Source: Halonotius pteroides
GTDB taxonomy: Archaea > Halobacteriota > Halobacteria > Halobacteriales > Haloferacaceae
Assembly (NCBI RefSeq): GCF_003605635.1
Contig: NZ_QMDW01000001.1
Span: 124,001 to 188,000, forward strand
Reading direction: 5' to 3'
Length of the DNA: 64,000 bases
The translations under genes were made by a program, and so were the position numbers. Positions 45,400 through 57,648 of this stretch are shown here, piece after piece (positions within the stretch are counted from its first letter, which is position 1; each line of letters starts with the position of its first letter). The notes under the pieces are model-generated. The model worked only from the letters and a program-made list of their open reading frames with translations, was not told where the DNA came from and made no database searches.

Positions 45400-45786
45400 A
45401 TGGATGAGGTTGTTGATGGGATTTTCGTAGGTCCCGAATCTGATGCCAGCGATGAGGTACTTCTACAGAAACACGGTGTCGATACCGTGGTCTCTCTAAC
45501 TCACAGCAACCCGAAAACAGGAGACATCACTCGTGTAGATGTGCCGATGATAGATGGACCTCAGAACAGTTACCAAGCGTTCGCTGAAGCCGTAGAAACA
45601 GTTGTGGAGCAACGTGAAAACGGTCAGCGTGTCCTGGTCCACTGCTCGGCTGGTTCCTCCCGCAGTCCTTCAGTCGCCGCAGCAGCAATATCAAACCTCA
45701 CAGAAACAGACCTCAAAGACGTGTTCAACCAAGTAATTGAACGAAGGTCCGAAACCGATCCTCACGAAGCATGGTTCGTCAGGTAA
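45400..45786 (+). CDS. Dual-specificity protein phosphatase
   Basis: 128-residue single-domain phosphatase of the DUSP type. IFVGPESDASDEVLLQKHGVDTVVSLTH is the usual start, VDVPMIDGPQNSYQAFAEAVETVVEQRENGQRVLVHCSAGSSRSPSVAAAAI contains the signature HC-x5-RS with nucleophile Cys and Arg, and the general-acid Asp is in PMIDGPQ. It should remove phosphate from Tyr or Ser/Thr of proteins. The target is not known. A strong TATA tract lies in the structured region upstream, which suggests separate control. Confidence 0.9.
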   Translation: MDEVVDGIFVGPESDASDEVLLQKHGVDTVVSLTHSNPKTGDITRVDVPMIDGPQNSYQAFAEAVETVVEQRENGQRVLVHCSAGSSRSPSVAAAAISNLTETDLKDVFNQVIERRSETDPHEAWFVR

Positions 45787-45880: not shown

Positions 45881-46579
45881 ATGACCGATGTCGTCTACGC
45901 TGTAAGAATCTCAAACTTGGAGTACTCTGGACTAAAAATAATGGACGTCAAAATAGGGAAATCAACCAACATAGATAATACCTTATCTCAGTATAGCCGG
46001 GGTGCAAGAAACATTGAATTACTTGATATGTGGAAACCAAATCCACAAAAGAACCTCTCTACAGCTGAAAAAGGCGTCCACGAAATAGCAGAAAAATACG
46101 CCTATAATAAACAAAGCGAAAAATTTGTCTTCCTACAAGGTGGCTACCAGCAGTTTGCAGAAACTGTCAATAAAATATTGAAGAACACCACTAAAGCCGA
46201 AATTGAGGAAAGAGAAACCGATACAGAAGACACGGAATCAGTGAACTACACTGGAACAACCCCTGCCATAATCAAGATATTAGGAGAGACACATGAAGTC
46301 GATAACTGGACTGATACCCTCCAAACCGGAGTAGCACAGATACTGGCTGAAGTCGATGATCAAGAGAAAGTCACTGAAATTGAAGGACGAACAAGAAGCT
46401 ATTTTGTCAAAAAAGAAAGACAATCTGATTTAGTCTCCCCTAAACAAATACCAGAAACAGAACTATACGTAGAATCAAACTTCTCTGCCAACGACGTAAA
46501 TAGAGTTATTCAAAAGGTACTGAAAAAGTACAACTACGAAGAAGAAAAGCTCGAAATATTCACCGAAGAAGAAAACTAA
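45881..46579 (+). CDS. GIY-YIG-like (T5orf172-type) domain protein
   Basis: 232-residue protein. The N-terminal 100 residues follow a degenerate GIY-YIG/T5orf172 pattern (VVYAVRISNLEYSGLKIMDVKIGKSTNIDNTLSQYSRGARNIELLDMWK, then TAEKGVHEIAEKYAYNKQSEKFVFLQGG). The C-terminal domain (TPAIIKILGETHEVDNWTDTLQTGVAQILAEVDDQEKVTEIEGRTRSYFVKK ... ELYVESNFSANDVNRVIQKVLKKYNYEEEKLEIF) resembles a block I recall from phage and restriction-related proteins. The first Tyr and KIGKS are present, so nuclease activity is possible. Confidence 0.65.
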   Translation: MTDVVYAVRISNLEYSGLKIMDVKIGKSTNIDNTLSQYSRGARNIELLDMWKPNPQKNLSTAEKGVHEIAEKYAYNKQSEKFVFLQGGYQQFAETVNKILKNTTKAEIEERETDTEDTESVNYTGTTPAIIKILGETHEVDNWTDTLQTGVAQILAEVDDQEKVTEIEGRTRSYFVKKERQSDLVSPKQIPETELYVESNFSANDVNRVIQKVLKKYNYEEEKLEIFTEEEN

Positions 46580-46616: not shown

Positions 46617-48608
46617 CTATAGTGACGTTGTCTCAAGTTCTCTAAAATCCCGAACCAGTCTAAACGCCACTCGATCCAAGTTTAACCCTTCTTCCTCTAT
46701 CCTCTGCTTCAATCCTTCCAGTACTTCTTGCTTCCGTGCTGCTACCCAGACCGCGTCAAAACCAGATTCCAGGTGTTGTTTCAGATGGTCGACTTCCCGC
46801 TGATTGTTGCCCATCGCCACCTCAACCACTAACTCCATGTTTCCCATGTTGACGTAGACATCGGCGTCGAACTTTTCGAGGAACGCATCCAAACCCTGTT
46901 CTTCGAATGCTTCCTTAATCTGGTTCTGCCAGTACCTGTGGATGATTCCTCCTCGCCCCCTGTGTTTCACGTCCAGATCTAGACCTTCTGCGTAGTCACG
47001 GCCTTTCTCCGTCAACTGGAGCAGCTTTCGCTTGCCATCCTGAGCCTTGACGTGGCGTTCTATTACAACACCTTGGTCGACCAGTTCGTTCTTCGCCTTG
47101 TTTCCCTTGTACGTACTACTGAAACGCTCGTATCGTTTGGTGAGAGGCTTGAACGGGTTCTCGATAATATCTTTCAGTAACCGGTCGGCGTCCTCAGATA
47201 CCTGTATCTCGGTCGGATCATCGGGGATCGTGGTCTCCGGTACTTCCTCGGATCTGCCAGGAGCAATCCGGTTGTCGAAACGCTTCGTGGTCTTCCGTCT
47301 CTCGCTTTCCAGTTTACTCCATTTTTCGGCCTGCTGCTTTTCGAGTTCTCTATCCGTGACGGTCTTCTCCAGTTCGTAGTTTTCGAGTTTGACCGGGACT
47401 GGGTACCGGCCACCGACCTGAACGACTGCTTCACCAGTGGTAAGATCGTGAGCGAACTCCGCCTGCCTCTCAGACAGGTTCATCGCATCCGTGACCGATT
47501 GGAACTGCTTCCGGTCGGCTGTAGGCAACAGAAGCTTGGTGAAGGTATTCGCCTTGATCGAATCCGTCAATTTGCTTGCCTCTTGATCTGCGACAACCAA
47601 TCCTTCACCGAACTCCCGCATCTTCGCCGTCAACTCATCCACCTCAGGGATACCGGCAGCATCCTGCCGCTCCTTATACACAGAAAAAACCCGCTTACCC
47701 TCGTCAAGAAAGAAGAGATGATTCAAACCACTATCCCGGTGACCCTGAGCCAAACGATACTCGTAGACATAAGCAAAGAGAACCTCCATCAAGAAATTCT
47801 GGACATCCCGGCTCAAGCCGTCAAACTCGAAGACAACATTCTCCTTCAGCAATTCGTCTACAGCATACCCCCGATTACAGTCAAAAACAGTGCCTGCAAC
47901 CAGGTTAATCGCCTCCAACCGATTCAACAAGGTATCGCGGTAATCAGACGCCTTCCGAACAAAGTTGACCTTCTGCTTCTTGATCAAAAGCTCCAGCTCG
48001 TGAAGACTCGGATACGGCTCAGAAACCCTATCAAACAAATTATACAGAGTATAAAGTTCGACAACCTTCTTCATCAAATAATTCTTCGAACCACTCAGCA
48101 ACGAAGTAGCGTGACCAAAGATCTCAGCAAAAACCTGTGCCCATCTACGAGGCGGAACACCCGTCGGCGGCTTCAACGGATTAAATTTGAGGCGAGTCCA
48201 CGACAACACCAGCAAATCAATGTCTTGGGATAGATGCCGGTAATCCTGCTTCAAATCAAACGCCCAAAACGGCTTACCCACCTCATCCATCAACCTGTAA
48301 GACAGAGTCGTCTTACCACTCCCCGACTGGCCGACAGCGAGAAGATGCTTGGTTAGATCCTCCTGAGAAAGATAGAACGACTGTTTCCGAAACGTCTCCC
48401 CCAAATAAACATCACCGTACCTCGCGCTATTTTCGAACGGGTAACGATACCGTTGAACAGACTTTCCAAAAACAGCTTTCGAAATCGCATCCTGGATATA
48501 CTCACTACTGGAAAACCCAGAGGCTAAGACCAGCTTCTGCACCTCATCATCATCAAGAATGCCACGTTGATCTGCCAATCGGAGAACCTTCTCAGGATCA
48601 CGACTCAC
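46617..48608 (-). CDS. HerA/VirD4-like ATPase with nuclease-fold-like C terminus
   Basis: 663-residue protein. Residues about 75-400 form a HerA/FtsK-type ATPase: HLLAVGQSGSGKTTLSYRLMDEVGKPFWAFDLKQDYRHL (Walker A), HLFFLDEGKRVFSV (Walker B), then VVADQEASKLTDSIKANTFTKLLLP. After a charged linker comes a winged helix (YERFSSTYKGNKAKNELVDQGVVIERHVKAQDGKRKLLQLTEKGRDYAE) and a final alpha-beta domain (ADVYVNMGNMELVVEVAMGNNQREVDHLKQHLESGFDAVWVAARKQEVLEGLKQRI) that looks like a restriction-endonuclease fold. In a conjugative element it is the best candidate for the coupling ATPase that brings DNA to the channel. Confidence 0.8.
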   Translation of the reverse strand: MSRDPEKVLRLADQRGILDDDEVQKLVLASGFSSSEYIQDAISKAVFGKSVQRYRYPFENSARYGDVYLGETFRKQSFYLSQEDLTKHLLAVGQSGSGKTTLSYRLMDEVGKPFWAFDLKQDYRHLSQDIDLLVLSWTRLKFNPLKPPTGVPPRRWAQVFAEIFGHATSLLSGSKNYLMKKVVELYTLYNLFDRVSEPYPSLHELELLIKKQKVNFVRKASDYRDTLLNRLEAINLVAGTVFDCNRGYAVDELLKENVVFEFDGLSRDVQNFLMEVLFAYVYEYRLAQGHRDSGLNHLFFLDEGKRVFSVYKERQDAAGIPEVDELTAKMREFGEGLVVADQEASKLTDSIKANTFTKLLLPTADRKQFQSVTDAMNLSERQAEFAHDLTTGEAVVQVGGRYPVPVKLENYELEKTVTDRELEKQQAEKWSKLESERRKTTKRFDNRIAPGRSEEVPETTIPDDPTEIQVSEDADRLLKDIIENPFKPLTKRYERFSSTYKGNKAKNELVDQGVVIERHVKAQDGKRKLLQLTEKGRDYAEGLDLDVKHRGRGGIIHRYWQNQIKEAFEEQGLDAFLEKFDADVYVNMGNMELVVEVAMGNNQREVDHLKQHLESGFDAVWVAARKQEVLEGLKQRIEEEGLNLDRVAFRLVRDFRELETTSL

Positions 48609-48669: not shown

Positions 48670-51660
48670 CTATGCGGCAGCTCCACCGTAGAACTCCTCT
48701 GCCTGGGCTACAATTGGATCAACTAGGTCTTCGTGCTTGTAGAGGCTGAGACCGTTATTTCTCAGAACCGCTTTGACCTCTGTCTTGATCTCGGCTCTAA
48801 TCTTTTCCCTGTTCGTCCAATCAAGCTCCACGCTATCCTTCAGATTGTGCTTGAGTTCCCGAGCGATGCTTTTCAGTGTTTCTTCGCCGATTTCAGTCTC
48901 CGTATTCGCAGAAATAGCATCATAGAACGCCAGTTCCTCGTCACTCAATCCAAGTTCATCTTGCCGATCATCCGTCTCCTGAATCCTCTCAGCATAATTT
49001 CTCAACTCGTCGATAACCTGCTGAGTCGACAGAAACCCTTCATTATAGTCGTGAATCGTACTCTGAAGTTCTTCTTCGAACGACTCGTACTTTGCCAAGT
49101 TGCTTTTTTTCCGGGTCGTAATCTCATTTTCCAGTAGCTGCCGGAGCATCTTCACCTGAAGGTTCTCGAATTCGACCTCCTCCACATCCTCAAGGAATTC
49201 ATCACTAAGTACTGGCTTCTCTTTCTCCCATTTGTCGAAACCCGTAACTTCGATCAGATCCTCAATACCGACTCCTTCAGCTACTAAATCTTTCATGGCC
49301 GAGTCTAAGTCTTCCATCTCGTCGGGATTATTGGAATCCTCAATACTGTTTATTGCTCCGAGAACGGCTTCGAAGAAGGCTACATCTACACGGATGTCAC
49401 TTGCCGCAGAGTGCGGAGTAACCAATGCGTGAGCTTTCTTCAACTCCTTCATTGATTCCCGGAACTGATCCTCACGCTCTTCAGTAATCAACACTTCATT
49501 CTGTGCCTTATAGAGCAACCTTTTCCGCTCCAACTTATCAAGCTCCGGCCAGTCGCTGTAATCAACTGCTGCGAAGTAGTCCGCAACCTTCTGATGTTTT
49601 TCCTTCATCACCTTTACACCCTCCTCAATATCCAGCATCGCATCGTTCCGAACCTCGGACGTGTATTTATCCAAAGCCTGCTTTAGCCGCTTACTGATCC
49701 CGATATAGTCTACAATCAGACCACCAGGTTTGTCCTTGTAAATGCGGTTGACTCTGCCGATTGCTTGAAGCAGATTATGATTCTTCATCGGCTTATCCAT
49801 GTACAAGGTGTGTAGATGGGGCGCGTCAAACCCTGTTAACCACTTATCACAGACGACCGCGATTTTGAATGGATCTTCATCGTCTTTGAAACGACGCTTC
49901 AATTCATCATTTGAGATAGGATCGTCGATGAAGTCTTCTGCTCCTGAAATCACTACTCGTGTCTCTGGAGCGTCCGGATTATCCCTGATTTTCTTGCTCA
50001 GGTTCACTGCGGCTTGACGGCTAATCGCAACCACCATTCCCTTACCTTCGATTTCTCTGTTGTTGAAGTGCTCAACAATATCGTCAGCGATCATCTCCGT
50101 CCGCTCTTCACTGTTCTCAATGACGCGGCGAAGCTGAGTCCACTTTCTTTTCATCTCCTGCTTCAAATCATCCGACTTCGACTCCATCAATTCGTTAAAC
50201 CGGTCCTCAATCCCAGGATCGTTAACTTGGAGTTTAGCTAGACGGCTCTCATAAAAAATCGGGACTGTGGACTCATCTTTCTCTGACTCCTTGATAGTAT
50301 ACTGGCTGATGTAGCCACCGAATGTATTCGTAGTAGACCGATCTTCCTTCTCTATTGGAGTTGCTGTAAAACCGAGGTGCGAAGCGTTAGGAAGCCCGTC
50401 ACGAACGTTTGTAGCCAAGCTCTTGTACTGAGTACGGTGAGCCTCGTCCGCAACCACAATCACATTATCTCGGTCGTTGACTTCCGGATACTGAACCTCG
50501 TCGTCCGTGGTCTGGAACTTTTGAATCGTCGCAAAAATAATCCCTCCTGCCTCTCGATCCAATCTTTCCCGGAGTTCAACTCGATTGTCGCTATCTGCCC
50601 ACTCAGCGTCTAAACCGTGGTTCTTGAACTCTTTGTATAGTTGGTCGTCAAGATCATTTCGGTCAGTGAGGAAGACAAGCGTCGGGTTCTTCATCGAACT
50701 CTCACGACGAATTTTCTTCGCATAGAAAACCATCGAGAGGGACTTCCCAGAACCTTGGGTGTGCCAGACAAGCCCAATACGATTCTCATCAGGATTGGGA
50801 ACAACTTCCTTACTGCTCTTAACAGCGCTGTTCACCGCATAGAACTGATGATAGGCTGCAAGCTTTTTCCCAAGCTTTCCGTCCTCATCAGCGTATACTA
50901 TGAAATTCTCGATAAGATCCAGTAGTCTTTCTTTGTCGAATGCACCACGGATCAATACCTCTGAAGGTGGTAGCTCATCTGTAGCATCTTTTTCTTCATC
51001 GATATACCGCCAAGGTGAGAACCACTCCCAACCGGCACTAAGGCATCCGAGCTCGGCATTGTTCATATCCAGAACGCCAATAAGCTCGTTGTAGTGGAAC
51101 AGATCCGGAATATCGCTCACATATCGATCCGTGACCTGCTTATACGCATTACCCATCGATGCCTGAGGATTCGTCGGATCCTTCATTTCCAAAACACCGA
51201 TAGGAAGACCGTTGACAAACACGATGACATCGGGCTTCCGTTGTGGACCTTCCCCGACCTGTATAACTACTTGATTAGTAACTAGGAAATCGTTCTTTTC
51301 TGGCTCATCAAAATTAAAAATGTCCACATACTCCCCTCGTGTCTCTCCCTCATTTTCGTACTCAACATGCACGCCTTGGACAATATTTTGATGGAACTTT
51401 TGATTGCTCTTCAGAAGTTTCGGAGAATTAAATCCTATAAGTTTAGATATAGCTTGTTCAATAGCTTCATTCGGAAGAGATGGATTTAATTCTTGGAGCT
51501 TTGCTCTGAGTCTGTCTCTAAGTACAACTTCAGAGAGAGAATCCCGCTCTGGCTCATCGCTATTCGGCCCAAGTTCAGAACCAGGCTTGTAATCATACCC
51601 GATGTTCTGAAAAGCCTGTAGGGCCGGCTTCTCTGCCAACTCCATCTCATTCATAGACAT
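48670..51660 (-). CDS. hsdR: Type I restriction enzyme R subunit
   Basis: 996-residue motor and nuclease subunit. An N-terminal PD-(D/E)xK nuclease (KPDVIVFVNGLPIGVLEMKDP) at about residue 140 precedes a superfamily 2 helicase: VWHTQGSGKSLSMVFYAKKI (Walker A), VVADEAHRTQY (DEAH), LGFTATPIEKEDRST and a second RecA half with VCDKWLTGFDAPHLHTLYMDKPMKNHNLLQAIGRVNRIY. A helical C-terminal part binds the methylase core. The gene is third of the operon M-S-R, six bases after HsdS. All motifs are intact. Confidence 0.96.
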   Translation of the reverse strand: MSMNEMELAEKPALQAFQNIGYDYKPGSELGPNSDEPERDSLSEVVLRDRLRAKLQELNPSLPNEAIEQAISKLIGFNSPKLLKSNQKFHQNIVQGVHVEYENEGETRGEYVDIFNFDEPEKNDFLVTNQVVIQVGEGPQRKPDVIVFVNGLPIGVLEMKDPTNPQASMGNAYKQVTDRYVSDIPDLFHYNELIGVLDMNNAELGCLSAGWEWFSPWRYIDEEKDATDELPPSEVLIRGAFDKERLLDLIENFIVYADEDGKLGKKLAAYHQFYAVNSAVKSSKEVVPNPDENRIGLVWHTQGSGKSLSMVFYAKKIRRESSMKNPTLVFLTDRNDLDDQLYKEFKNHGLDAEWADSDNRVELRERLDREAGGIIFATIQKFQTTDDEVQYPEVNDRDNVIVVADEAHRTQYKSLATNVRDGLPNASHLGFTATPIEKEDRSTTNTFGGYISQYTIKESEKDESTVPIFYESRLAKLQVNDPGIEDRFNELMESKSDDLKQEMKRKWTQLRRVIENSEERTEMIADDIVEHFNNREIEGKGMVVAISRQAAVNLSKKIRDNPDAPETRVVISGAEDFIDDPISNDELKRRFKDDEDPFKIAVVCDKWLTGFDAPHLHTLYMDKPMKNHNLLQAIGRVNRIYKDKPGGLIVDYIGISKRLKQALDKYTSEVRNDAMLDIEEGVKVMKEKHQKVADYFAAVDYSDWPELDKLERKRLLYKAQNEVLITEEREDQFRESMKELKKAHALVTPHSAASDIRVDVAFFEAVLGAINSIEDSNNPDEMEDLDSAMKDLVAEGVGIEDLIEVTGFDKWEKEKPVLSDEFLEDVEEVEFENLQVKMLRQLLENEITTRKKSNLAKYESFEEELQSTIHDYNEGFLSTQQVIDELRNYAERIQETDDRQDELGLSDEELAFYDAISANTETEIGEETLKSIARELKHNLKDSVELDWTNREKIRAEIKTEVKAVLRNNGLSLYKHEDLVDPIVAQAEEFYGGAAA

Positions 51661-51666
51661 ACACGA

Positions 51667-52974
51667 TTAGACCTCGTTAGATAATTTTTTCTCGCCAATA
51701 TTAATGTCACTTGCCCTGACTTCCCCCGTCATTAGTCGGGGTAGTAGCGTTTGTTTCATTTCCTCCAAATAACGATTCTCAATCATATTGCTAAACTGAA
51801 GTTCTTTCATAGATTGGACAATATCAGAGAATCGCTCAATCTCAGATTCTGGTGGTAGAATAACAGGATATGATTTGATGACGTCCTGCCTAAGATGATG
51901 TACCGTACTTCCGGTTGCATGAGCATGACAATAGTTCCTAAATTTGTCGGATCTCATTAGATAGTAGAGGAAATATTCGTCCAACATATTGTCTTCTTTT
52001 GGAGAAATGTCACAGACATCCTGAGAGATAATAATGCGATCCTCATCAAATATTGGCGGGATCAAAGCAGGACTGCCTAATAGCGAACCGTCCATAGTTT
52101 GTTCTGTGATTGCAATAATTAGATCATATGGCTCCATCTCATATCTTTCTTTCATTTCTTCTTTTGTATAAAACTTCATACCGTCCTCTCTAAACCCTCC
52201 GCCTTCTTCTACATTTTTTAGGTTGATCATTGGGTATCCTTCTTCTCCCTTCTTATCAAGGTAGTCACTGGTGTATGAGAGCCCTCGGCTTGGGTTGACC
52301 AATTCTCCTAATTCTTTAACTTGAAATTCTGAAGGAATTTGACCTTCTTTAGAGTCTTTGAAATCCGTATAGTTGTCAAAGTCGATGAACCAAGATTGGA
52401 AGAGTGCATCAGCAATGGCCTCCAACCGGTCGTTCATCTCTATATTTGTCTGTATTTTGTCATCAAAGTCGGTGAGTACGTCGGCTATCTTTTTTTGATA
52501 TTCCAGTGGTGGGAGCGGTATTTTTATCTTTTCACACTCAGGAACACGAATATGATCAACGGTTGACCCGCTTCCCTTGTATTTGTGAATCTGATTCTGT
52601 ACAAAAGGGCTTAGAAACGCATAAGTTAGGTATCTGGAATCAAGCACTTCTGGATCAGGTCGATATTGCATTACACGTTGACCCAAAAATACCGTATCAT
52701 CTTCTCTAACGAGTCCAACGTCCCCAAGAGGGGCTTCTCTAGTTAAAAGAACATCACCTTTGTTCACCTCCGCTCGGCGGATCCATTCCTCATACGTTTC
52801 TTCCGTTACATAATCTACGTCACTGAGATCAATTCGTCCTTCACCGATATTTGTAGTCCTCAGCATCTTATACGGTGTAGGGCCATCCACTGTCGGAGCT
52901 GTGTTATTGATACAATCAACTATGAGTTCACAGGCTTCTCTGACCTCTACTACATCCCAATCAGATTTCATCAT
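51667..52974 (-). CDS. hsdS: Type I restriction specificity subunit S
   Basis: 435-residue specificity subunit with two target-recognition domains. The first (residues 1 to about 185, GDVLLTREAPLGDVGLV ... IRVPECEKIKIPLPPLEYQKKIADVLTDFDDKIQTNIEMNDRLEAIADALF) ends in a conserved helix; the second (about 205-435) repeats the layout (ITEQTMDGSLLGSPALI ... VILPPESEIERFSDIVQSMKELQFSNMIENRYLEEMKQTLLPRLMTGEV). The start overlaps the end of HsdM by 11-14 bases. The target site cannot be read from the sequence. Confidence 0.93.
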   Translation of the reverse strand: MMKSDWDVVEVREACELIVDCINNTAPTVDGPTPYKMLRTTNIGEGRIDLSDVDYVTEETYEEWIRRAEVNKGDVLLTREAPLGDVGLVREDDTVFLGQRVMQYRPDPEVLDSRYLTYAFLSPFVQNQIHKYKGSGSTVDHIRVPECEKIKIPLPPLEYQKKIADVLTDFDDKIQTNIEMNDRLEAIADALFQSWFIDFDNYTDFKDSKEGQIPSEFQVKELGELVNPSRGLSYTSDYLDKKGEEGYPMINLKNVEEGGGFREDGMKFYTKEEMKERYEMEPYDLIIAITEQTMDGSLLGSPALIPPIFDEDRIIISQDVCDISPKEDNMLDEYFLYYLMRSDKFRNYCHAHATGSTVHHLRQDVIKSYPVILPPESEIERFSDIVQSMKELQFSNMIENRYLEEMKQTLLPRLMTGEVRASDINIGEKKLSNEV

Positions 52975-54553
52975 AACCAAGCCCCCGGAGATTTTCACGG
53001 ATGTTTTCTTTAAGTGAATCGCTCTCCTCGAACTGTCCTGCTAATGCTTCTGTCAACCGAGACATCTTTTTATCAAACGGTTCCCCCTCATAATCTTCGT
53101 CTTTTATTCCAACGTATCTGCCAGGAGTAATCACCCAGTTTTGCTCTTTAATCTCATCCCGGCTGGCCACGGCACAGAATCCAACTTCATCTGAGTACTC
53201 TTCAGCATTTTTCTCCCCTCGATATGCTCTTACTATCTCTGTGATTTTTGATATATGATCTTCCGATAATTCATTCAGTGTTCGGTCAATTTCTTCATAC
53301 ATGTCTCTGGCATCTACGAATAATGTCTCCCCACTTCTATCCCTATATTCGTCAGATTTCTTTCCTTTACTCAGAATCCAGATACACACGGGAATTGAGG
53401 TTGTATAGAATAATTCTCCTGGAAGAGCAATAACTGCGTCAACTAGATCTTCTTTGATGATCTCTTTTCGAATCTCACCTTCTGGATCCTGGTTGGCGAG
53501 AGAACCATTCGCCATAACAGTTGCTGCCATTCCATCTTCATCGAGATGGTGGATCATATGCTGAATAAACGCGAAATTTGCATTTCGAGCGGGAGCCATC
53601 CCGTAATCAAAACGAGGATCATCATCTGCGATTGAGTTCTTTCCCCAGTCATCCATATTGAACGGAGGATTGGTAATGATATAATCGGCATCAAGACCTT
53701 TATGTTGGTCATCACGTATACTGTCACCAAGCTTAATATTCCCATCTAGACCCCTGAGGTACAGGTTCATTTTACAAATCCGCCATGTTGATTCCTTAAT
53801 TTCTTGACCGTAGATGGAAATTTGATCAGTATCTCCACCGTGATTCTGAAGGAATTTATGACTCTGTACAAACATCCCTCCAGACCCGCAGAATGGGTCA
53901 AAAATACGGCCTTCGTAGGGTTCCAGTATTTCGACGAGAAGTTCGACTACACTTTTCGGCGTGTAGAATTCTCCTCCTTTTTGACCGCCTTCCATAGCAA
54001 ATTTTTTGATAAAGAACTCATACACGCGCCCAAAGATATCTTCATCCTGTTTTTTATCTCCGTTCTCATCTTTCTGAGACATCTCAATATCAGCAAAGAG
54101 GTTAATTAGTCCCTCCAATGAATCATGGGGAAGAGTAGAACGAGAGTATCCCTTCGGGAGCATCCCTTTTAATCGAGGGTTTTCCTCCTCGACTGCTCGC
54201 ATAGCTTCGTCTATCTTTTGTCCGATCTGAGGATCAGTTGCATTATTAACAAGATGGTTCCACCTTGCTTCCTCAGGAATGTAGAAGACGTTTTCTCGGG
54301 TATATTCGTCGTTATCTTTTAAGATATATTCGCGTTCCTTCTCGTCTTCAGTGTAGTAACGGGAGTCTGGATCATCGATTTTTCTTTCTAATTCCGCCCT
54401 CCTTTCCTCAAAAGAATCTGACATATTCTTTAAGAACAAGAGTCCAAGAGTGTAGTCCTTGTATTCTGATGGGTCAACTGGTCCACGTAGTTTCGTAGCT
54501 GTTTCCCAGAGTTTCTTTTCAAGTTCGCCGTTAGAATTTCCCGCAATTGCCAT
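52961..54553 (-). CDS. hsdM: Type I restriction-modification methyltransferase M
   Basis: 530-residue N6-adenine methylase from the ATG at 54,553 (MAIAGNSNGELEKKLWETATKLRGPVDPSEYKDYTLGLLFLKNMSDSFEE). A helical N-terminal domain is followed by GGEFYTPKSVVELLVEILEPYEGRIFDPFCGSGGMFVQ (SAM-binding motif I) and DYIITNPPFNMDDWG (catalytic NPPF). The upstream reading to 54,619 is not conserved in type. It lies 62 bases behind the TBP-like gene on the same strand, then overlaps HsdS, so all four may form one transcript. Confidence 0.96.
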   Translation of the reverse strand: MAIAGNSNGELEKKLWETATKLRGPVDPSEYKDYTLGLLFLKNMSDSFEERRAELERKIDDPDSRYYTEDEKEREYILKDNDEYTRENVFYIPEEARWNHLVNNATDPQIGQKIDEAMRAVEEENPRLKGMLPKGYSRSTLPHDSLEGLINLFADIEMSQKDENGDKKQDEDIFGRVYEFFIKKFAMEGGQKGGEFYTPKSVVELLVEILEPYEGRIFDPFCGSGGMFVQSHKFLQNHGGDTDQISIYGQEIKESTWRICKMNLYLRGLDGNIKLGDSIRDDQHKGLDADYIITNPPFNMDDWGKNSIADDDPRFDYGMAPARNANFAFIQHMIHHLDEDGMAATVMANGSLANQDPEGEIRKEIIKEDLVDAVIALPGELFYTTSIPVCIWILSKGKKSDEYRDRSGETLFVDARDMYEEIDRTLNELSEDHISKITEIVRAYRGEKNAEEYSDEVGFCAVASRDEIKEQNWVITPGRYVGIKDEDYEGEPFDKKMSRLTEALAGQFEESDSLKENIRENLRGLGYDEI

Positions 54554-54615
54554 ACATAGTGTTGCTGAGGAAACACTGTTAATGGTTGCGTTGAACTGGC
54601 GGCCATCAACAGAGG

Positions 54616-55152
54616 TCAACGAAGTATCTGAAGCTGGTCTCCCAGATGAGACTCTGACTTCTCCGCTTCCTCCCTGCTTATAGTACCGCTGATAATCGAT
54701 TTTCCGCTAGCAAATACGAGCATCACCGTTCCCAGATCTGGAGGTCGATAGATTACGCCAGGGAACTGCTCTGGTTCATATTCGACGTTCTCAAGTCCTA
54801 GGTGGATAGCTAAAGCCTCTAATTGAATCTCTGTATCGAAGTCTGCGAGATAGACAGAGTTGTTTTGTCTGAAAGGGACTTCATCAAACTCCACGCCGAT
54901 TTTTCGAAGGGCACTCAGCAGGTCTTCCTTGGCCTCAAACAATGCTTCCCTGTTGGGGGTACCTCGGATCTGGAAAGTCCCTGTACGGTAGAGAGTAAGA
55001 GCCGGTCCTCCTTCCTCCAAACGTATCGTCGCCATAGAATTGCTGTGAGTTTTAGCCTCTATGTCGAATTCGTCAGAAAGAGCTTGAATAACCTCTGAAA
55101 GCTCTATTTGCCTGCCGAGCTCTCCACTTCCCATCGTACTTACTACGTGCAT
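54616..55152 (-). CDS. Divergent TATA-binding protein with a degenerate first repeat
   Basis: 178-residue protein. The C-terminal repeat is clear TBP: QLEALAIHLGLENVEYEPEQFPGVIYRPPDLGTVMLVFASGKSIISGTISREEAEKSESHLGDQLQ, with both Phe residues that push into the minor groove. The N-terminal repeat (ELGRQIELSEVIQALSDEFDIEAKTHSNSMATIRLEEGGPALTLYRTGTFQIRG) keeps the spacing but has lost the FPG loop and its Phe. Normal archaeal TBP is nearly symmetric. It sits directly upstream of hsdM. It may direct transcription of element genes, or compete with the host TBP. An ATG seven codons downstream is an alternative start. Confidence 0.85.
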   Translation of the reverse strand: MHVVSTMGSGELGRQIELSEVIQALSDEFDIEAKTHSNSMATIRLEEGGPALTLYRTGTFQIRGTPNREALFEAKEDLLSALRKIGVEFDEVPFRQNNSVYLADFDTEIQLEALAIHLGLENVEYEPEQFPGVIYRPPDLGTVMLVFASGKSIISGTISREEAEKSESHLGDQLQILR

Positions 55153-55221
55153 CCAGGTTATCTATTCGGAGAAGCCCATTCCTCTTTATTCCACTCGTTT
55201 CATTTTTATAAGATCTCTCGG

Positions 55222-56091
55222 TCACCAGTCTGTCAGCCCGCTTTGTTCGGTCAGTACCTCTGTTGTTTCCATGACTTTCCGGTTCCCGGATTTTCTCAGC
55301 ACCATTCCCGTGTACTGTTCTTTGCCGTGGCGGTCAGCTAGGCTCTCCAGATACTGTTCGGCCTCATCTATAGAGCCGAAGAAGGGGTCGACCAGTTCAT
55401 CTCCGGCCTCGGTGTGGTACACGACTCCTTCGTCTCCACTCCAGTAGTACTGCGTTCTGCTGCCTCCATCTGGCAGAATCTCTTCCTCAGCTTCTTTCTC
55501 GAATGCCTGGTCAATCGCCTGTTTGTAGTGTGCCTCGGGGAAGTAATTCTCCAGTTTGAAGCGGAGAGGTCCGGAGAAGGAGGTGCCGCCGGTAAGATTC
55601 ATCCAGTACGGCTTATCCTCCTCGACGAACCGTTTCTCCTCGGCGTATTCTTCGAGCAGTTCATCTACTCCCTGTATCGTTCATCACCTTCTTCGGGCTC
55701 AAGCAACGCCTCTAACTCGGTTTCGAAGACCCCGATGACCTCCTCAACCTCGCCTCCGTCAGGGTACAAGGGTGCGTCTTCCTCCGGATCTAGATCAGTA
55801 CGGTACGCACCGGCTTTTTCCAGTTGTTCCTGGCTGAAGTAGCCGTACTCCCATTCTCCGTAGGTGTTGGGAGAGCGGACACGGCCGAAGTAGACATCGT
55901 CGTCATCCCCGGCCTTGTCGTAGGCCTCCCACTCCCAGTCCGGGAGAAACGCGGCCTCCCACTCCGCGACAGGCTCCTCCTCATCGTAATCAGTAATTGT
56001 ACGTCACCGCCGGCCGAACCTTGGCTTTGGAAGATTTTTGACTGGCTTTGTATACCTCCTCTCGTATATCCGATGTAACAGTAGTCATCAT
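55222..56091 (-). pseudogene. Element gene broken by two frameshifts
   Basis: Three consecutive minus-strand frames read as one acidic protein of about 285 residues. The first part starts at 56,091 (MMTTVTSDIREEVYKASQKSSKAKVRPAVTYNY) and stops at 55,990. The second, without start codon, reads TDYDEEEPVAEWEAAFLPDWEWEAYDKAGDD ... EPEEGDERYRE and stops at 55,665. The third, again with no start until 55,602, reads VDELLEEYAEEKRFVEEDKPYWMNLTGGTSFSGPLRFKLENYFPEAH ... QSGLTDW. Removing one T near 55,990 joins the first two as VTYNYDYDEEEP. Sequencing error, true decay or recoding are possible. The domain is not recognised. A separate gene beginning at 55,602 cannot be excluded. Confidence 0.6.
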
Positions 56092-56210: not shown

Positions 56211-56636
56211 TCAAGCCAGTTTCTCGGCTACATCGTAGGCGAAGTCGGTATCTCCTTCACTGTAATTTCCTTCTTCCAGGTCTTCTATCATCTGATCGAT
56301 CTCGTCCCTTTCATCCAGGCTTCTTTTCGTCAGATACGCGGGTAGTGTGGAAACACCCAGGGCTCCAACGAGTCCAACTGTGGCAAGATTACTCTGTGTG
56401 ATTGTGTCGACCTGTTCTGAGATCTGTGAGTAGAACTCTGGAGCAAGCTTGCCGGCTACACCAGCACCTGAGATTCCAAGTCCTGTCGTTGCGCGTTGTT
56501 TAGCTTGTTCGTGATACTCCTCGCTTTCATTCTCTAATGCACTTATTACATCATCTAAAGATTCGTAGTAAAATTCTTCTCCCTGTGTTGCGAGTGCTGT
56601 ATTTATTTCCTCAAGATAATCTCCCAAATTGTTCAC
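56211..56636 (-). CDS. Hypothetical element protein with two Gly-rich hydrophobic segments
   Basis: 141-residue protein. Acidic helices at each end (NNLGDYLEEINTALATQGEEFYYESLDDVISALENESEEYHEQ; SLDERDEIDQMIEDLEEGNYSEGDTDFAYDVAEKLA) flank TTGLGISGAGVAGKLA and NLATVGLVGALGVSTLPAYL, two moderately hydrophobic Gly/Ala segments that may lie in the membrane as a hairpin. No family recognised. Confidence 0.6.
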   Translation of the reverse strand: MNNLGDYLEEINTALATQGEEFYYESLDDVISALENESEEYHEQAKQRATTGLGISGAGVAGKLAPEFYSQISEQVDTITQSNLATVGLVGALGVSTLPAYLTKRSLDERDEIDQMIEDLEEGNYSEGDTDFAYDVAEKLA

Positions 56637-56712: not shown

Positions 56713-57648
56713 CTATGCCTGCATCTCGTGCTCCTCCATCAACTCTCTAAGCGCGCTTTCTTCACCCGGCCAGTACGGCTCTGCATCTCCCTGCTCGATC
56801 AAATCCCGCGAACGAGTATAAACAGCTGAACGACCGAGATTCTCAGGTTCCGGTACATCGTTACCGCCGCTCTCCAGGAGCTGGGCGGCCTGCTCAAACC
56901 CTTGCGCCAACTCATAATCAGGTACATCCCGCGTGTAATGCGTAAGTGCGCGTGTACCTGTGTTGTACGTCTCCCAGAGTGTTGGAGACTCCAGATCCTC
57001 CACCTCACTATGCATAGCATTCAGAAGATCCGGTACAGGATTCTCCAAGTACCGATCAATCCCGGTATCCATCAACACCAAAAGGGCCTCATCCTGATTC
57101 ATCAACTCTCTATTTTGGGCTTGGGCTAACCGGTGCTCGATCTCCGCCGGCGACTCAATCACGGCATCAACAGCGTTGTACGCCAAACCCGGCTGGAACG
57201 GCTCGCTGTGAGTCTGATCAAATCCGAGCTCGGAGATGAAGGCGGTCATCCCGTTACTACATACCTGGCGCTCCGCACCCACTTCGTACTTCAAACCGTG
57301 AAAACCACTGTGACCGCTCTGCACCTGTAAACCCAGGTCGATAGGATCATCCTCGGCAGCGTACACCGTTGCACCGTCAAAATCTATTTTCGCACTCATC
57401 TTGTGCGCAGTAGGAGAGATAGAAACTCTGCCCTGTGGCTCTACCTCTTCGTGCCTGTCCACTGCGTCCCCGACCGTCTCCAGGATATCCCCGTACTGGA
57501 TGATGTTGTAGAAATCATCGCTGCTGGAGACGACACCGGTGGCTCTGCCATCGTCAGTCCACAAACTGTCCCGGTACGGAATATCCTCCCAGTCATCCTC
57601 CCCGGTGTGATGGGCGTAGACTTCGTGCCGGTCCACCTCCGGAAGCAT
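56713..57648 (-). CDS. DUF932-like phage/plasmid protein
   Basis: 311-residue protein. The middle matches the DUF932 pattern found in phage and plasmid proteins: VVSSSDDFYNIIQYGDILETVGDAVDRHEEVEPQGRVSISPTAHKMSAKIDF ... IDLGLQVQSGHSGFHGLKYEVGAERQVCSNGMTAF. The function of the family is unclear; it often sits near antirestriction or plasmid-maintenance genes. The frame continues upstream of the ATG as coding-like sequence (VEEYVFDGLDELYETAE) without a standard start codon before a stop near 57,740, so the real start is uncertain. Confidence 0.7.
   Translation of the reverse strand: MLPEVDRHEVYAHHTGEDDWEDIPYRDSLWTDDGRATGVVSSSDDFYNIIQYGDILETVGDAVDRHEEVEPQGRVSISPTAHKMSAKIDFDGATVYAAEDDPIDLGLQVQSGHSGFHGLKYEVGAERQVCSNGMTAFISELGFDQTHSEPFQPGLAYNAVDAVIESPAEIEHRLAQAQNRELMNQDEALLVLMDTGIDRYLENPVPDLLNAMHSEVEDLESPTLWETYNTGTRALTHYTRDVPDYELAQGFEQAAQLLESGGNDVPEPENLGRSAVYTRSRDLIEQGDAEPYWPGEESALRELMEEHEMQA

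Follow-up and report, generated by a model that had tools for sequence, protein, structure and literature searches.

A TbpC-like TATA-binding protein as a probable dedicated part of haloarchaeal restriction and defence cassettes

The TBP gene and its restriction cassette

The window, the whole stretch of 64,000 nucleotides of Halonotius pteroides DNA that was analysed, carries on its reverse strand a gene for a TATA-binding protein (TBP) followed by hsdM, hsdS and hsdR, the genes that together make up a predicted type I restriction-modification (RM) system. The features of the locus, in window coordinates, are as follows.

54616..55152 (-), TbpC-like (defence-associated) TBP of 178 amino acids, identified by Pfam, residues and an AlphaFold2 model
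55203..55212 (-), TATA-like CTTATAAAAA, 51-60 bases upstream of the TBP start, a candidate promoter for this gene that is proposed from sequence only and lacks conservation among relatives
55222..55602 (-), small open reading frame (ORF) upstream of the TBP gene, in the same place in loci L009-L012
54569..54593 (-), conserved noncoding element CAACGCAACCATTAACAGTGTTTCC, proposed private promoter, -40 to -16 from the hsdM ATG
52961..54553 (-), hsdM, ATG at 54553 (Pfam, PADLOC, NCBIfam)
51667..52974 (-), hsdS, ATG at 52974 with GTG 52998 also possible, overlapping the hsdM stop (Pfam, PADLOC, NCBIfam)
48670..51660 (-), hsdR, six bases past hsdS (Pfam, PADLOC, NCBIfam)
46617..48608 (-), HerA-like ATPase gene (PADLOC mad8-like), kept after hsdR in loci L010, L011, L115 and L118

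The overlap of hsdM and hsdS measures 14 bases and the spacing of hsdS and hsdR six, which indicates that M, S and R are read together. The TBP gene lies directly upstream of these three genes on the same strand, across a gap of 62 bases (54554-54615), exactly as the first-pass annotation of this DNA had described. Its further statement that the TBP gene runs straight into hsdM holds for the adjacency and not for a simple run-on, as the gap contains a conserved promoter-like element. An alternative hsdM start at TTG 54619 was ruled out by the in-frame stops found between -45 and -69 in most relatives. The neighbours of the TBP gene comprise hsdMSR together with HerA-like and DUF932 genes, and the 64-kb window also contains a tyrosine recombinase, Orc1/Cdc6 genes and a T4SS pilin, which make a mobile or integrated element likely and support the mobile-element setting that had been assigned to the gene.

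Several other genes adjoin this cassette. The HerA-like ATPase is closest to mad8 of the MADS system in PADLOC, and for the cassette hsdM and hsdS there are matches to mad2 and mad5 as well, weaker than those to the type I models. Upstream of the TBP gene, small ORFs and a gene for a DUF932 protein (55222-55602, 56211-56636 and 56713-57648) are co-conserved with it in several relatives. The opposite strand carries a dual-specificity phosphatase-like gene (45400-45786) and a gene for a T5orf172/SeqA-C-like protein (45881-46579), the latter conserved in L115 too. In two related cassettes, hsdR and the HerA-like gene are separated by an additional TBP gene whose product belongs to another subclade (L011:14463-15008 and L115:16499-17044), giving two TBPs per cassette.

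That the product of 54616-55152 is a TBP homologue is beyond doubt; it is claimed here as a variant TBP only, canonical TATA binding being no part of the claim. PF00352 matches the protein with 90.6 bits (E 5.9e-26) over two repeats, of which the C repeat scores 68.3 bits and the N repeat 25.1 bits. The AlphaFold2 model has a mean pLDDT of 94.7, and the PDB structures that match it best are TBPs of archaea and eukaryotes (TMq 0.77-0.87). The two-repeat TBP saddle is borne out, as is the good C repeat read from the sequence at the outset. The C repeat is intact in EYEPEQFPG and LVFASGK and retains F137, F154, E133 and E135; the acidic stirrup that contacts TFB (E131, E133, E135) is likewise kept, and TFB binding is predicted. 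In the N repeat, N44 and Y61 replace the two intercalating phenylalanines, so that a Phe pair is present in the C repeat and absent from the N repeat, the combination by which TbpC-like TBPs are defined (N-terminal pair gone, C-terminal pair present; PMC4230888). The loss that had been ascribed to the N repeat is borne out for the intercalating residues and does not extend to the fold: in the model the N repeat folds as a TBP half, and what is lost is residues. The source genome encodes three further TBPs, each with both repeats strong.

Association of the divergent TBP group with defence genes

In Halosimplex salinum, Halobaculum saliterrae, Halobellus clavatus and Haloarcula mannanilytica, the gene directly upstream of hsdM encodes a relative of this TBP with 66-86% identity. 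A TBP at E<=1e-34 is found in 21 of 392 genomes of the order, and the neighbourhoods fetched from this search contain type I RM genes or large methyltransferases, in some cases accompanied by SNF2/BrxHII-like helicases; TBP matches on plasmids have RM or methyltransferase neighbourhoods of the same kind. Two haloviruses carry a TBP of the non-canonical group, one adjoining a type IIG enzyme and the other an Eco29kI system, and a scan of viral contigs with the TBP 54616-55152 as query found no relative. Pairing of a TBP with HsdM, for which a search in other archaeal elements had been proposed, thus recurs across several genera, is joined by many other defence types, and is not peculiar to one genome. 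The non-canonical group as a whole occurs on chromosomes, plasmids and viruses, its partner systems are type I, type IIG and DISARM/BREX-like, and in some of them the TBP gene points away from the RM genes or lies downstream of them. Searching in the reverse direction from HsdR, 12 of 15 homologues have a TBP in the fetched stretch; those without one are L223 and the fragmentary system L224, and at L221 the contig end cuts the stretch, which appears to contain the end of a TBP.

A maximum-likelihood tree was built for 91 TBPs, the TBP fragment of L152 being left out. All 67 scored haloarchaeal TBPs outside the canonical clade (67/67) have a defence gene within 3 kb, a count that includes L161, whose long branch arises at the base of the canonical clade and whose gene adjoins a helicase gene, and that leaves L165, a long branch with no defence gene near, with the canonical clade in which it was placed. 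The defence label changes 2 times on this tree, against 19.9 in shuffles. The TBP 54616-55152 lies outside the canonical clade, in a well-supported clade separate from L217 (taken as TbpC), and the non-canonical TBPs are not necessarily one clade.

A further sample, in which the neighbourhoods of accessory and canonical TBPs were compared, was drawn by PF00352 alone from 44 genomes. Among the matches listed, beyond which lie the weakest PF00352 matches, a defence gene is located within 3 kb of 18/18 non-canonical and 1/21 canonical TBPs (Fisher p 3e-10), as scored with a defence-protein panel drawn partly from TBP neighbourhoods and applied identically to the controls; the single canonical case was scored through a helicase match. 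All 16 partner proteins from this sample that were tested with Pfam possess Eco57I/N6-MTase, HSDR_N or defence-helicase domains. TFB paralogs, a more chromosomal sample than that of the TBPs, served as a control and gave 0/40 near defence genes against 18/18 for the TBPs (p 2e-15); on this ground a general effect of mobile, multi-copy transcription factors was rejected as the cause of the association. None of 30 TBP loci chosen from largely non-halophilic archaeal matches is near a defence gene. It is near certain that the divergent haloarchaeal TBP group is associated almost exclusively with RM and defence genes. The gene at 54616-55152 is best explained as a TbpC-like TBP that has become a dedicated part of these cassettes.

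The one-sided loss of intercalating residues noticed in the first-pass annotation is common to the whole defence-associated group. Canonical haloarchaeal TBPs possess F44 in 21/22 and F61 in 22/22, whereas among the 67 defence-associated TBPs F61 is retained in 5, Tyr61 is found in 59, and position 44 is in nearly all of them Tyr, Asn, Asp, Ser or other. The C-repeat phenylalanines F137 and F154 are each present in 65/67, and the TFB-contact stirrup is still more constant (E131 in 67/67, E133 in 66/67, E135 in 67/67). Two loci, L014 (4454-8543) and L015 (2794-6855), contain MTase-TBP-helicase-TBP operons whose TBPs are complementary: in each operon the first TBP has the N-terminal Phe pair but not the C-terminal one (S137, P154), and the second is the reverse. 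The very long branch and unusual composition of the TBP at L150:6064-6579 suggest that it may be decaying or carry a frameshift.

The element before hsdM and the proposed role of the TBP

The gap between the TBP gene and hsdM contains the element CAACGCAACCATTAACAGTGTTTCC, with the consensus CAACRCAACnnTTAnCAGnGTnTCC (core CAACRCAACnnTTAnCAG). In an alignment of 12 related systems, positions -40 to -21 each carry about 1.26 bits, compared with about 0.3-0.45 for the stretch before them, into which the 3' end of the TBP gene extends in most of the systems. The in-frame stops in relatives indicate that the element is noncoding. It occurs once in the 64-kb window (0.00 expected), and a genome-wide pattern search gave a single match at 0 or 1 mismatch. 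Its register, with AA at -34/-33 (BRE), TTA at -29 to -27 (upstream TATA half) and CAG at -25 to -23 (non-TATA downstream half), fits a predicted leaderless archaeal promoter, the downstream half aside. Canonical TBP genes of the same order mostly have TTTATAAG- or TTTTTAAA-type boxes. The initial expectation that no separate promoter intervenes between TBP and hsdM is thus probably false; this removes a simple TBP-hsdM operon and strengthens the idea, raised at the same time, of promoter choice by an altered TBP.

In a second HsdM family, whose N terminus is about 58% identical, another element, GCAAAnTTGAAG, occupies this position before hsdM, and it is also found in L223, where no TBP is nearby. 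The occurrence of the element CAACGCAACCATTAACAGTGTTTCC goes with the HsdM family and not with the TBP subclade: L219, L164 and L220 retain it next to a TBP of another subclade, and a comparison of promoter elements with TBP subclades gave no match. These observations suggest that the recogniser may be less specific, or may be another protein. The six-mer TTGAAG was also considered as a general defence promoter word and dropped, since its enrichment in defence loci (10 families vs 0, nominal p 5e-4) fails correction for 4096 words.

In established structures, such as the TBP-TFB-DNA complex of Pyrococcus, it is the C half of TBP that is turned towards TFB, the BRE and the upstream part of the box, whereas the downstream part is read by the N half. 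Docked on host TFB, the intact C half of the present TBP would read the BRE together with the element's normal upstream half, and the altered N half would tolerate or prefer its non-TATA downstream half, so that protein and element appear to agree. Paired with host TFB, the TBP would fire a private promoter before hsdM, recruiting host RNA polymerase to a site poorly used by the housekeeping TBP, and hsdMSR would be switched on as one unit after the TBP accumulates, for example when the element is newly in a host. This role of the TBP as an activator at the hsdM promoter, acting with host TFB, is our main reading, to which we assign a probability of roughly 0.45. Of the two functions that the first-pass annotation had offered, redirection of RNA polymerase to element promoters fits the conserved non-TATA element, and the timing of restriction against methylation is rejected because hsdMSR, judged from sequence, share one promoter: the three genes form one tight unit with no noncoding promoter for hsdR. 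Extended more tentatively, and at clearly less than an even chance, to haloarchaeal defence cassettes at large, the proposal would be that they carry their own basal initiation factor together with cognate non-TATA promoters, a sigma-factor-like orthogonal switch in which the TBP has one altered half; in L014 and L015 the paired TBPs are complementary in this respect.

Other roles can be set against activation. As a repressor or autoregulator, the TBP would sit on the BRE and half-TATA without productive initiation and keep RM expression low and balanced; the altered N half would suit this, as would the divergent orientation of TBP and hsdM in L120, L164 and L222, a layout common for regulators, yet repression alone does not need an essentially invariant TFB-contact stirrup, and we regard such a role as rather doubtful. 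The retained stirrup also counts against the TBP as a structural or sensing subunit of a defence complex, bending DNA or binding foreign DNA, as do the promoter-register element conserved before hsdM and the related RM system L223, which has no nearby TBP. A subunit role is unlikely in our view, even with the association of TBPs with many unrelated effector types, the 4-base overlaps with a helicase gene in some systems, and the presence of TBPs in TOTE/TALON systems (PMC12458937) in its favour.

Alternatively, the TBP might serve as a spare initiation factor, through which transcription of defence genes would continue while the housekeeping TBP is blocked or hijacked by a virus. Haloviruses do encode TBPs of the defence-associated group, and tbpC transcripts were undetected in laboratory growth (PMC4230888), but the viral TBPs also adjoin viral RM genes and so look like cassette parts rather than hijackers, which leaves a spare factor quite improbable. 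Becker et al. (2014) described the Phe loss in tbpC-like genes and left their function open, considering them possibly nonfunctional or very specialised regulators (PMC4230888). A decaying passenger would agree with the loss of the N-terminal Phe pair and with the deletion of Halobacterium tbpC, which had no apparent phenotype (PMC2121645). The dN/dS of the N repeat (0.04-0.21; C repeat 0.04-0.17, several pairs being near saturation in dS) indicates purifying selection and rules out decay of this repeat; together with Tyr61 in 59/67 and the 67/67 defence association it makes a passenger very improbable indeed. The absent phenotype may have another cause. The only divergent TBP of pNRC100, VNG_RS12735, is taken, judging by its residues, to be tbpC; it belongs to the defence-associated group and lies in an MTase-helicase-TBP operon (L217, pNRC100 103993-120520), where it follows a methyltransferase and a helicase with 4-base overlaps. 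An ISH27 transposase interrupts the methyltransferase, and the system has therefore probably lost its function in the model strain, which may explain why the deletion was silent.

Relation to known systems

TBP paralogs and the N-repeat Phe loss (PMC4230888, 2014), as well as TBPs in TOTE/TALON (PMC12458937), are already known. A literature search, mostly outside subscription journals, found no paper linking TbpC-like TBPs to restriction or defence genes of haloarchaea; in one paper on haloviruses, a gene of the TBP family appears near a methylase in a list of extra provirus genes, the link not being remarked (PMC7230728). The association gives TbpC-like TBPs, previously called possibly nonfunctional or specialised regulators, a concrete role that is testable in tractable haloarchaea, and makes the TBP neighbourhood a marker for finding unknown haloarchaeal defence systems. 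If activation is true, basal transcription factors would join the known ways of controlling restriction systems, and nature would offer in this protein an example of a TBP that selects promoters by means of one altered half.

The C proteins of type II RM systems, which have a helix-turn-helix and make R appear later than M, resemble this TBP in being small transcription regulators encoded beside RM genes. They differ in that the haloarchaeal protein has a TBP fold without a helix-turn-helix and is a basal initiation factor, and in that separate control of R and M is not found here, hsdM, hsdS and hsdR overlapping or lying 6 bases apart. The TbpC-like TBPs described in haloarchaea, such as Halobacterium tbpC, share with it the lost N-terminal and present C-terminal Phe pair and a scattered distribution (PMC4230888), the link to restriction or defence being what is absent from the papers found. 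The multiple TBPs and TFBs of Halobacterium NRC-1, among which alternative TBPs have been proposed to choose promoters in environmental regulation (PMC2121645, PMC3404096), are similar as proposed promoter selectors; unlike the present TBP, the canonical-like TBPs of pNRC100 have no defence gene nearby. TOTE/TALON conflict systems have TBP-domain proteins inside defence operons (PMC12458937), as do the haloarchaeal cassettes. TALON, however, is described as mostly limited to Chloroflexota and as containing TPR-CSD proteins and a NERD nuclease (PMC12458937), whereas the haloarchaeal cassettes contain full-length archaeal-type TBPs with the TFB stirrup, placed beside RM, DISARM or BREX-like genes.
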